Virus record (IMG/VR): IMGVR_UViG_3300032282_000683
Coordinates: 1-21,669 of that record
Reading direction: 5' to 3' (one strand)
Length of the DNA: 21,669 bases
DNA from: a virus
In this document: one piece after another, positions 4,817 to 7,328 of the stretch
How positions within the stretch are numbered: the first letter of the stretch is position 1
Layout of the letters: each line of letters begins with the position of its first letter
The notes under the pieces: generated by a model
What the model was told of the DNA's origin: nothing
The model's database searches: none
The model's input: the letters and a program-made list of their open reading frames with translations, nothing else
Program-made: the position numbers and the translations under genes

Positions 4817-4996
4817 ATGACATATATAGATAGCAGCAAAAGGGAATTATATCAAAACATTTACATTTTAGAAGTAGAAAACGAATTATTAAGAGCAAAA
4901 ATTAAAAAATTACAAAATGAGTTATTGGACAGTGCCAAGCAAAGAATTGGCGAGGATGAAATACAACAGGATGAGCCACGCAACCCAATTCATTGA
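4817..4996 (+). CDS. Small coiled-coil protein overlapping the DnaA-domain gene (59 aa)
   Basis: The frame runs from ATG 4817 (two bases after the previous stop) to TGA 4994-4996. Residues ~10-40 (ELYQNIYILEVENELLRAK...) give a clear leucine/isoleucine heptad pattern, so a short coiled-coil dimer is likely. The last 80 bases are read in a second frame by the DnaA-domain gene that starts at 4917. The tight upstream spacing and good heptads argue that it is real, while the long overlap lowers confidence. It could partner the DnaA-domain protein. Confidence 0.5.
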   Translation: MTYIDSSKRELYQNIYILEVENELLRAKIKKLQNELLDSAKQRIGEDEIQQDEPRNPIH

Positions 4997-5255
4997 GGAT
5001 GTGTGCAACTTTTACGGACTAAGCAAAGCAGAATTGGTAGGTAAAAGAAGGCAAAGGCATATAGTAAAAGCCAGGTATATTGCCATATATTTGATAAGAA
5101 AGCGTACAGACCTTACTTTATCAGCAATCGGGCATATATTTCACAGGGATCATACAACGGTTATCTATGCGGTCCAAACCATTGAGGAGGTGCTTAGTTT
5201 GAAGTACGAGAACGATTTTCAAGATGAAATAAAAAAAGTTTTATTATTATTTTGA
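4917..5255 (+). CDS. Stand-alone DnaA domain IV-like DNA-binding protein (112 aa)
   Basis: Residues ~26-95 match the C-terminal domain IV of DnaA: VCNFYGLSKAELVGKRRQRHIVKARYIA, then LSAIGHIFHRDHTTVIYAV. RDHTTV (77-82) is the DnaA signature that contacts the DnaA box, and the basic RRQRH region fits the DNA backbone loop. There is no AAA+ domain, so it can bind DnaA boxes but cannot open an origin by itself. Possible roles are titrating or competing with host DnaA, marking a phage origin or regulating transcription. A DnaA-box-like TTTTCCACA follows its stop directly. ATG 4917 is used; 4956 and 4971 are shorter options that would reduce overlap with the upstream gene. Confidence 0.85.
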   Translation: MSYWTVPSKELARMKYNRMSHATQFIEDVCNFYGLSKAELVGKRRQRHIVKARYIAIYLIRKRTDLTLSAIGHIFHRDHTTVIYAVQTIEEVLSLKYENDFQDEIKKVLLLF

Positions 5256-6116: not shown

Positions 6117-6353
6117 ATGGAAAATAAAAAAGAAAAGTTCGGAGCATGGAAAAAGACAACGTCTAAAGGAGAAGTAATTGAATTTACTATTAATGGAAAA
6201 AAGTATTCTATGTGGAACAACAAATTCAAAACACAGGAAAAGCAACCAGACTTTACAATCTATTTAAACGATTATAAACCTAATGCTGAACAAAAGAAAG
6301 AATACAATAATCTAAACAAACAAGAAGCTGAACCAGGCGACTTACCATTTTAA
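6117..6353 (+). CDS. Small predicted ssDNA-binding-type protein with SSB-like C-terminal tip (78 aa)
   Basis: The N-terminal ~50 residues (FGAWKKTTSKGEVIEFTING...) are Lys/Trp-rich and beta-prone, compatible with a small OB-like or DUF736-like fold. The C-terminus is a polar linker ending EPGDLPF. A terminal acidic-Asp-Leu/Ile-Pro-Phe tip is the hallmark by which bacterial SSB recruits partner proteins. Being next to erf, it is most simply a phage SSB or an SSB-tail mimic that engages host SSB-binding enzymes. The full SSB OB-fold (~110 aa) is not present, so the DNA-binding part is inferred. Confidence 0.6.
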   Translation: MENKKEKFGAWKKTTSKGEVIEFTINGKKYSMWNNKFKTQEKQPDFTIYLNDYKPNAEQKKEYNNLNKQEAEPGDLPF

Positions 6354-6363
6354 AACTAACACT

Positions 6364-6555
6364 ATGAACCAAAAACAACAAATTGCAAACTACCTAAGTA
6401 AAGGAAAAGCAATTACCCCAATTGATGCATTAAACAAATTCGGATGTTTTAGATTAGCTGCTAGAATAGCTGATCTAAGAAATGAAGGCGTAAATATTGC
6501 CACTAAAATTGTTACAAAACAAGGTAAAAGTTACGCTAGTTATCGGATAGTTTAG
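6364..6555 (+). CDS. Small winged/helix-turn-helix protein (63 aa)
   Basis: The whole protein matches a small HTH family frequent in phages: IANYLSKGKAITPIDALNKF, then GCFRLAARIADLRNEGVNI, then a short beta hairpin GKSYASYRIV. The ITPxDALxxFGxxRLAARIxxLR pattern (HTH_39-like) is very typical. Such proteins are thought to bind DNA and often lie next to replication genes. Here it directly precedes the promoter-like element and structured leader of the initiator gene, so it could regulate that gene or bind the 24-bp dyad upstream; neither is shown by sequence. Confidence 0.78.
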   Translation: MNQKQQIANYLSKGKAITPIDALNKFGCFRLAARIADLRNEGVNIATKIVTKQGKSYASYRIV

Positions 6556-6563
6556 TATATTTG
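6556..6563 (+). promoter_or_regulatory. Promoter -7-like element TATATTTG before the structured leader
   Basis: TATATTTG starts on the base after the HTH gene's stop codon and is identical to the -7 element of the early promoter. No TTG lies at the usual spacing upstream, so it may need an activator. Initiation ~5-7 bases downstream would start the RNA right at hairpin 1 of the leader. Confidence 0.45.
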
Positions 6564-6566
6564 TCT

Positions 6567-6646
6567 TAGGTGTTGCAGACCTATTAAGAACTTTTTGCCC
6601 TTGATATGAACTCCTATCTGCAACATAGGGGGGATTTGATAGGGCA
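6567..6646 (+). promoter_or_regulatory. Structured 5' leader with complementary loops and a crossing stem
   Basis: TGTTGCAGA (6571-6579) is perfectly complementary to TCTGCAACA (6617-6625). Each copy also sits in the loop of its own hairpin: TAGG/CCTA (6567-6570 with 6580-6583), and CTCCTAT/ATAGGGG (6611-6617 with 6625-6631, one G-U pair). In addition TGCCCT (6596-6601) pairs with AGGGCA (6641-6646). The 9-bp pairing and the 6-bp pairing cross, giving a pseudoknot; alternatively hairpins 1 and 2 form a kissing complex. All of it lies between a -7 element and the likely start codon at 6657, so a translational or transcriptional control RNA is inferred. It matches no riboswitch or ribozyme that I recognise. 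Confidence 0.55.
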
Positions 6647-6656
6647 TTTTTATTTT

Positions 6657-7328
6657 ATGGCTAAAGACCCAGCAGTGCTATTTTATACATCAGATTTTCT
6701 GAGTGGCACTTTTACAATGACTAACGAACAAGTTGGAAAATACATTCGTTTACTATGTCTACAACATCAAAAAGGTAAATTAACCGAAAAGGATATGCTA
6801 AGCATATGCAAAGCATATGACTTTGAAATATGGGACAAATTTATTAAAGATGGTGACACATTTTATAACGAAAGAATGTATAACGAAACAATTCGTAGGC
6901 AAAAGTTCTCTGAATCAAGGAGAAATAACGCTAAATCACCAAAAAACGATAGCACTAGCAAAGCATATGCTCAGCATATGGAAACTGAAACTGAAACTAT
7001 AAATGAAACTATAATTGAAGATGTAAATATAGCTTTTGATTGGTTTTGGAATGATTACGATAAAAAGGTAGGTGATAAGACTAAACTAAAAAAGAAGTGG
7101 AATAAATTATCTGATGAAGAAAGGCAAAATGCCATGAATTATATAGAACTTTACAAACAAGCTGTCCCAGACAAACAATTCCGCAAAAACCCAGAAACAT
7201 TTTTAAACAATAAATCTTGGAATGATGAAATTATCAAATCAACTACAAACAACTACTCAAAGGTCGCTGCAAAAGTTACATTCGACCAGCTTAACGAAGC
7301 CTTTGCTAAACGCCGTAGTGAGTGGTAG
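6657..7328 (+). CDS. Phage replication initiator-like protein (DnaD/O-type, 223 aa)
   Basis: From ATG 6657 the protein begins MAKDPAVLFYTSDFLSGT and continues MTNEQVGKYIRLLCLQHQKG, the N-terminal winged-helix domain found in phage replication organiser proteins. The frame is open back to ATG 6606, but the extra 17 residues are read from the structured leader and fall outside the family, so 6657 is preferred. A polar linker (~87-122, with ETETETINET) joins to a C-terminal part (~124-195) with WFWNDYDKKVGDKTKLKKKW, a region likely to bind a helicase or loader. Expected role: bind origin repeats and recruit the replicative helicase, like lambda O. Iteron-like repeats lie within the gene itself, again like lambda O. 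Confidence 0.78.
   Translation: MAKDPAVLFYTSDFLSGTFTMTNEQVGKYIRLLCLQHQKGKLTEKDMLSICKAYDFEIWDKFIKDGDTFYNERMYNETIRRQKFSESRRNNAKSPKNDSTSKAYAQHMETETETINETIIEDVNIAFDWFWNDYDKKVGDKTKLKKKWNKLSDEERQNAMNYIELYKQAVPDKQFRKNPETFLNNKSWNDEIIKSTTNNYSKVAAKVTFDQLNEAFAKRRSEW
6793..6819 (+). repeat. Iteron-like cluster 1 (ATATG phased by 11 bp)
   Basis: Three ATATG cores at 6793, 6804 and 6815 are spaced exactly 11 bp. The last two have the longer form GCATATG (6802-6808, 6813-6819), and the first reads GATATGC. One helical turn spacing would place bound proteins on the same DNA face. They lie in the N-terminal-domain coding region of the initiator. Confidence 0.5.
6963..6980 (+). repeat. Iteron-like cluster 2 (two GCATATG, 11 bp apart)
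   Basis: GCATATGCTCAGCATATG repeats the unit GCATATGCAAAGCATATG of cluster 1 (6802-6819) with two mismatches in 18 bases. The encoded residues differ between the clusters, so similarity is at DNA level. This cluster lies in the linker-coding part of the initiator gene. Confidence 0.55.
6981..7010 (+). repeat. GAAACT hexamer repeats next to iterons
   Basis: GAAACT occurs at 6981, 6987, 6993 and 7005 and encodes Glu-Thr repeats in the initiator linker. It is followed by an A/T-rich stretch to about 7060. Iterons next to an A/T-rich direct-repeat tract resemble the unwinding layout of lambda-type origins. Confidence 0.5.

Follow-up and report, generated by a model that had tools for sequence, protein, structure and literature searches.

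What lies in the 101 bases between an HTH_39 gene (ending at 6555) and the replication gene that follows it (6657-7328) in a phage genome fragment, and what might it do for the gene behind it? The window, by which we mean the whole stretch of DNA analyzed here (21,669 nucleotides), is a viral contig of 21.7 kb with a phage gene set of Bacteroidetes type that includes a DnaA C-terminal-domain protein, an ERF recombinase, the HTH_39 protein, the replication protein and NinG. The protein encoded at 4917-5255 consists of little beyond the DnaA C-terminal DNA-binding domain (PF08299, E value 9.5e-23). The intergenic gap holds a TATATTTG box and a leader RNA of 80 nt (6567-6646), which a preliminary description had proposed to be a structured, switch-like element ahead of the replication initiator. 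Our results are best explained if, in a large group of Bacteroidetes phages, this leader makes up the whole 5' UTR of the mRNA for the replication operon. Computation establishes its fold, its nature as a plus strand RNA and its fixed place between promoter box and AUG; we infer that it regulates the initiator, and by what mechanism.

A kissing-loop pseudoknot in the leader

The complementarities listed in the preliminary description, between the two loops, between the arms of P1 and P2, and within P3, were all found at the positions given there (Table 1). P3 encloses the P2 hairpin and crosses the helix formed between the two loops (the kissing helix), which makes the whole a pseudoknot. The minimum free energy structure that RNAfold produced for 6567-6656 is exactly P1, P3 and P2 (-22.3 kcal/mol), and the folding energy of this segment (z = -1.45) is unconvincing taken alone. 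When the window was shuffled with a Markov model, the layout of two hairpins with complementary loops arose at a rate of 0.015 per strand; the real sequence contains one. An exact loop complement of 9 nt had been reported; it is present in the window but takes in the two closing pairs and is peculiar to the window sequence, whereas 7 nt of complementarity is the general rule in homologues.

The two mutually exclusive states that had been read from these helices, as in a switch, were not upheld. P1, P2, P3 and the kissing helix occupy different bases and all four are compatible at once, the kissing helix and P3 together being the pseudoknot itself. No alternative pairing is conserved either: pairing of the A-rich J strand with the U-rich spacer, the one candidate computed, which would occlude the ribosome binding site, was unsupported, with a mean probability of 0.14.

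Table 1. Features of the promoter, leader and first gene in the window
Feature	Position	Strand	Evidence or remark
-7 promoter box TATATTTG	6556-6563	+	Matches the Bacteroidetes sigma-A consensus TAnnTTTG; predicted +1 at 6568
P1 hairpin, 5 bp, TAGGT (6567-6571)/ACCTA (6579-6583), 7-nt loop GTTGCAG	6567-6583	+	5/5 pairs covary; 96% of cells paired
Kissing strand 1, GTTGCAG (partner 6618-6624)	6572-6578	+	7/7 pairs with two-sided changes, 99.1% paired (82 rows); 14 distinct loop pairs
J joining strand, an A-rich part followed by a AACTTATT-like stretch	6584-6595	+	Alignments; narrow length range
P3 5' strand, TGCCCT (partner 6641-6646)	6596-6601	+	5/5 modelled P3 pairs covary; 94-95% paired
P2 hairpin, 7 bp, CTCCTAT (6611-6617)/ATAGGGG (6625-6631), 7-nt loop CTGCAAC	6611-6631	+	6/6 modelled pairs covary, 99.6% paired (82 rows)
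Kissing strand 2, CTGCAAC (partner 6572-6578)	6618-6624	+	Covariation as for kissing strand 1
P3 3' strand, AGGGCA	6641-6646	+	Covariation and RNAfold
U-rich spacer TTTTTATTTT, P3 to start codon	6647-6656	+	T count before leader-driven ATGs; spacer length in 73 distinct leaders
First gene after the leader, phage replication initiation/primosomal protein	6657-7328	+	Weak DUF1376; phrog_9327, phrog_270; 80 viral homologues

Covariation and strand selection

Homologues of the replication protein were present on 80 viral contigs, and the regions upstream of them have the same architecture in other letters. A covariance model of the leader gave 47 matches that reduced to 44 distinct rows, among them a minus strand match on contig L106 (E value 0.08) that is the mere complement of a true member. 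Across these rows 97.1% of cells pair (99.7% in the kissing helix), with two-sided changes in 24 of the 25 pairs, and pairing falls to 33-46% when the partners are slid by 1-3 columns. When the search was enlarged with relatives of two other initiator families, 82 distinct rows were obtained. In this set compensatory changes were found at 25 of 25 modelled pairs, bearing out the proposal of a structured leader with three stems and loop-loop pairing, and 96.9% of cells were paired, compared with 31-49% in the slid controls, these cells being counts of sequences and not of independent events. The covariation score was 0.760, versus 0.07-0.18 for the slid controls. Since the rows were aligned to a model that contains the stems but lacks the kissing helix, the result for that helix is not an artefact of fitting. 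A scan of all fetched loci yielded 111 distinct leaders with 14 different loop pairs; perfect loop complementarity was the search rule in that scan, and no such rule applied in the search that gave the 82 rows.

The covariation is the decisive evidence that the fold is real. Stem and loop letters vary freely across the 82 rows while the fold persists. The J stretch AACTTATT is fairly conserved, and the letters of the internal loop differ between subgroups. A kink-turn reading of TGAA/GGA, made by eye only, was dropped, as the letters concerned differ between subgroups, and no clearly invariant ligand core of the kind expected in a riboswitch was seen.

In the stems, 31 pairs are G.U and 5 are A.C; all of the kissing cells in the set used for this count (301/301) are Watson-Crick. 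Such an excess of G.U over A.C is expected if selection acts on the plus strand RNA rather than on the duplex or the opposite strand.

Promoter, 5' end and start codon

A TAnnTTTG box lies at -12 to -5 in F. psychrophilum (PMC9723704), and start sites in F. johnsoniae lie 4-5 nt from the box (PMC6847099). These published distances, applied to the box at 6556-6563, predict +1 at 6568, in agreement with the earlier suggestion that the transcript starts at hairpin 1. The box-to-P1 distance is kept among relatives, the first nucleotide of P1 falling between -1 and +1 relative to the predicted start in 70 of 73 distinct leaders, so that the RNA is predicted to begin with P1. A blunt hairpin at +1 that is locked by a kissing helix could, without any switching, shield the replication mRNA from decay that depends on the 5' end, and both the placement of P1 and the freedom of loop and stem letters to change, provided that the fold stays, would suit such a stabilizer. 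However, that function leaves unexplained the fixed U-rich spacer and AUG distance described below, as well as the restriction of the leader to operons headed by replication and endonuclease genes, and we consider it improbable.

The distance to the start codon is constrained too. The spacer between P3 and AUG measures 9-12 nt in 69 of 73 distinct leaders and 9-13 nt in nearly all members, and loop 1 lies 80-88 nt from the ATG in the 111 distinct leaders. T makes up 9-10 of the 11 nt before leader-driven ATGs; the 183 starts of the contigs concerned, a set that includes about nine leader starts, have on average 3.3 T and 4.8 A in the corresponding 11 nt. T is found at -1 to -4 in 67-72 of the 73 leaders (67 at -3), a conservation equal to that beside P3, where positions 3-4 are T in 73/73 and position 5 in 72/73; -6 is mostly U. 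In F. johnsoniae, A-3 and A-6 stimulate initiation and structure within -20 to +20 hinders it (PMC6847099). The last base of P3 is at about -11, in a region that well-translated Flavobacterium mRNAs leave unpaired. The start codon had been placed at 6657, with an ATG at 6606 as the alternative. Translation from 6606 was rejected, as many homologues lack that ATG and it is at 6657 that the start of the protein is conserved.

Genes behind and around the leader

In the window, the replication protein shows weak similarity to DUF1376 and matches primosomal/replication-initiation PHROGs. Other leaders precede Lin1244_N, HTH_36 and further proteins that match replication-initiation PHROGs, and at some loci an HNH, GIY-YIG, methylase or other gene lies directly behind the leader and the initiator comes second. 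The association with the replication initiator that had been suggested for the window holds in all but very few of the relatives examined. A kissing leader was found in 107 of 113 Lin1244_N/HTH_36 initiator relatives with upstream DNA (loop 1 to ATG 81-88 nt in the distinct cases listed); of the remaining six, two have kissing loops in a diverged form, and in three the covariance model places the leader further upstream. The sole HTH_36-initiator relative with no leader in the DNA examined was that of contig L590 (upstream of 2001), where a simple hairpin, GGGCAATCAATG...CATTGATTAGCCC, followed by TTTTGATATTATG, is found instead.

The leader persists while the genes on both sides of it are exchanged. 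An identical leader precedes unrelated genes in L078 (HNH) and L487 (Lin1244_N), the related genes of L479 and L487 carry different leaders, and the upstream neighbor varies (HTH_39, a methylase-like protein and others). The position right behind the leader appears to be an insertion hot spot: at L041:4679-5005, L078:415-744, L404:5113-5466, L562:1305 and L589:1264, an HNH, GIY-YIG or methylase-like gene sits exactly between leader and initiator. Most phage contigs have one copy of the leader. Second copies, whose loops differ from those of the first, occur at L167:7443-7527, L474:2860-2942 (minus strand) and L488:3786-3870, in each case directly before a NUMOD4/HNH homing-endonuclease-like gene (for L488 on protein similarity only).

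These surroundings bear on whether the element works as DNA, for example as origin hairpins, a primer or nick site (as had been raised earlier) or a homing or recombination site, with the RNA structure as a by-product. Its location at the replication initiator, the exchange of genes on both flanks and the homing-endonuclease-like genes directly behind it are all in keeping with such a role. Against it, the 31:5 ratio of G.U to A.C pairs indicates selection of the plus strand as RNA and disfavors a purely DNA role, and the further copies before NUMOD4/HNH genes (L167:7443, L474:2860, L488:3786) lie elsewhere in the genome; we regard a DNA-level element as very improbable. Slightly less so, and still quite improbable, is an independent small RNA, a transcript of about 85 nt that would end at the U-tract and act in trans, the gene behind it being incidental. 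The leader does have its own promoter box, a compact fold and a terminator-like 3' end. However, nearly all members have the AUG within 9-13 nt whatever gene follows, and the loops are consumed by intramolecular pairing and vary freely, which leaves no conserved target sequence.

Upstream of the leader, the window contains a 78-aa ORF (6117-6353) that ends in EAEPGDLPF, resembling the acidic tail of bacterial SSB. No match to it was found in Pfam or the PHROGs, and its product is a candidate phage SSB by the C-terminal motif only. In 65 of 99 contexts, an ORF ending in [LI]PF, as bacterial SSB does, occurs within the 2 kb ahead of the leader; overall, 61 of 3253 ORFs end in this way.

The most diverged member of the family (L176:5483-5570, 36 bits) precedes a gene of unknown function and keeps the kissing loops, P3 and a U7 tract. 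A relative of that gene in L478 lies behind a different and very stable leader (2400-2490), in which a long stem, CGTCATCGGATCGGGG/CCCCATCCGGTGACG, is followed by TTATTTTATG; it may belong to a further class of leader that has a U-rich spacer.

A possible translational operator or attenuator

The fixed ties to promoter box and AUG, together with a spacer that is U-rich to -1, suggest a 5' UTR that acts in cis on translation initiation. We lean, tentatively and with somewhat less than even confidence, toward a cis-acting operator that sets the translation of the first gene and is laid out like the leader of T4 gene 32. According to this model, folding would begin at the first nucleotide of the leader and produce a compact kissing-loop pseudoknot, in which the P1 loop pairs with the P2 loop and P3 closes the P2 domain, leaving only a U-rich single strand of about 10 nt ahead of the AUG. 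The folded leader should hold initiation on the first gene at a low, set level, which would be expected because P3 ends at about -11 in a normally unpaired zone and because U occupies -3, and mostly -6, where A is favored. The level could be set by the ribosome (S1) or by a conserved nucleic-acid-binding protein. The first candidate would be the SSB-like protein encoded just upstream, which would act as gp32 does at the pseudoknot and A+U-rich leader of T4 gene 32. The leader is shared by initiator families that are unrelated to one another, so that the regulator is probably something other than the initiator, and autoregulation by the latter is unlikely.

The main rival to the operator is a transcription attenuator, in which the P2-P3 domain and the U-tract would form an intrinsic terminator between promoter and AUG, and kissing or a bound factor would decide between stopping and reading on into the replication genes. 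P3 is G+C-rich and followed directly by T (positions 3-4 in every one of the 73 leaders, position 5 in all but one), which looks like an intrinsic terminator, and L176 keeps its U7 tract beside P3 though the AUG has shifted to 18 nt, behind an A-rich site. Both of these points, along with the absence of the leader in L590, count against the operator. On the other hand, the hairpin is long and interrupted and a standard terminator scan makes no call; several variants, including whole subgroups, have a P3 of 4 bp followed by UAUUUUAUUU or ACUUUUAUUU, which are poor, interrupted U-tracts; and no conserved antiterminator pairing was seen, the sole candidate computed being that of J with the spacer (mean probability 0.14). 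Moreover, U predominates through the entire spacer as far as -1, and the spacer keeps a fixed length relative to the AUG, which favors the operator because a terminator alone would not need such a spacer. Attenuation is, in our judgment, rather unlikely.

Relation to known RNAs

The window and 12 relatives had no match in Rfam 15 at the gathering threshold, and a search at a permissive threshold gave only chance-level matches (E value 2.6-4.9), consistent with the preliminary description, which had recognized no riboswitch or ribozyme class. When 50,697 phage records were searched at the nucleotide level with this region and with a homologous leader, only chance matches came back, and a protein search of the phage collection returned only distant initiators; no isolated phage there is known to carry the leader. 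A search of 405 Flavobacteriaceae genomes, run without a positive control, gave no leader and no prophage host, and the leader pattern was not found in genome contigs among the matches listed. No description of the RNA was found in the literature searched, which left out most subscription journals. The leader is thus apparently an undescribed RNA family, a structured phage mRNA leader.

Some of its elements have counterparts elsewhere. RNA I and RNA II of ColE1 kiss through 7-nt hairpin loops that are complementary across all 7 nt, as here, although the kissing in the leader is intramolecular and not between sense and antisense RNAs. The Pistol ribozyme likewise has a 5' hairpin whose loop pairs with a downstream strand; in the leader the partner strand is itself a hairpin loop, and there is no Rfam match and no conserved cleavage-site core.

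Among phage mRNAs, precedents are provided by the operators of T4 gp32 and gp43 and by phage homing endonuclease genes, whose starts are structured (PMC3014915). The gp32 translational operator in the gene 32 leader of T4 and RB69 (PMC3014915, PMC535899) is also a pseudoknot in the 5' leader of a phage gene for DNA replication; beyond it, an A+U-rich stretch without structure covers the ribosome site. This operator differs from the present leader, which is a kissing-loop complex of three stems starting from +1, stands in front of unrelated genes and has no sequence relation to it. The single-stranded stretch is far shorter here (9-13 nt, about 10 nt in the window) than in T4, and the gene that follows does not encode an ssDNA-binding protein; initiators, endonucleases or methylases follow, and the SSB-like ORF is upstream only. 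The starts of T4-type homing endonuclease genes are structured and inhibitory (PMC3014915). Those of I-TevI, segB and Aeh1 mobE have RNA structure near the start, and several HNH/GIY-YIG genes use the present leader; unlike them, it is common to replication genes, forms a kissing pseudoknot and has its AUG outside the fold. The put RNA of HK022, another cis-acting structured RNA of phage transcripts, acts on RNA polymerase, suppressing downstream pausing and termination (PMC9378689), whereas the leader is a kissing pseudoknot tied to an adjacent AUG.

Implications for Bacteroidetes phages

In a common group of environmental phages, the family shows textbook covariation that extends to a 7-bp kissing helix within one molecule. 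Because the loops vary freely and are always complementary, clean tests by compensatory mutation are possible. As the leader is kept while initiators, endonucleases and methylases swap around it, it is also a marker of modular exchange.

Ribosomes of Bacteroidetes hosts ignore Shine-Dalgarno sequences, and the leader offers a handle on how phages of these hosts control the first step of their DNA replication. A broader possibility, which we hold to be speculative and on the unlikely side, is that promoter and kissing-loop leader form a portable expression cassette governing the timing and strength with which Bacteroidetes phages make whichever replication initiator follows it, by way of a host-wide or phage-wide factor that recognizes the shape of the RNA, and that homing endonucleases exploit the same cassette. 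If so, the leader would represent a new class of phage RNA, possibly a structured ribosome-loading element that is independent of Shine-Dalgarno sequences.
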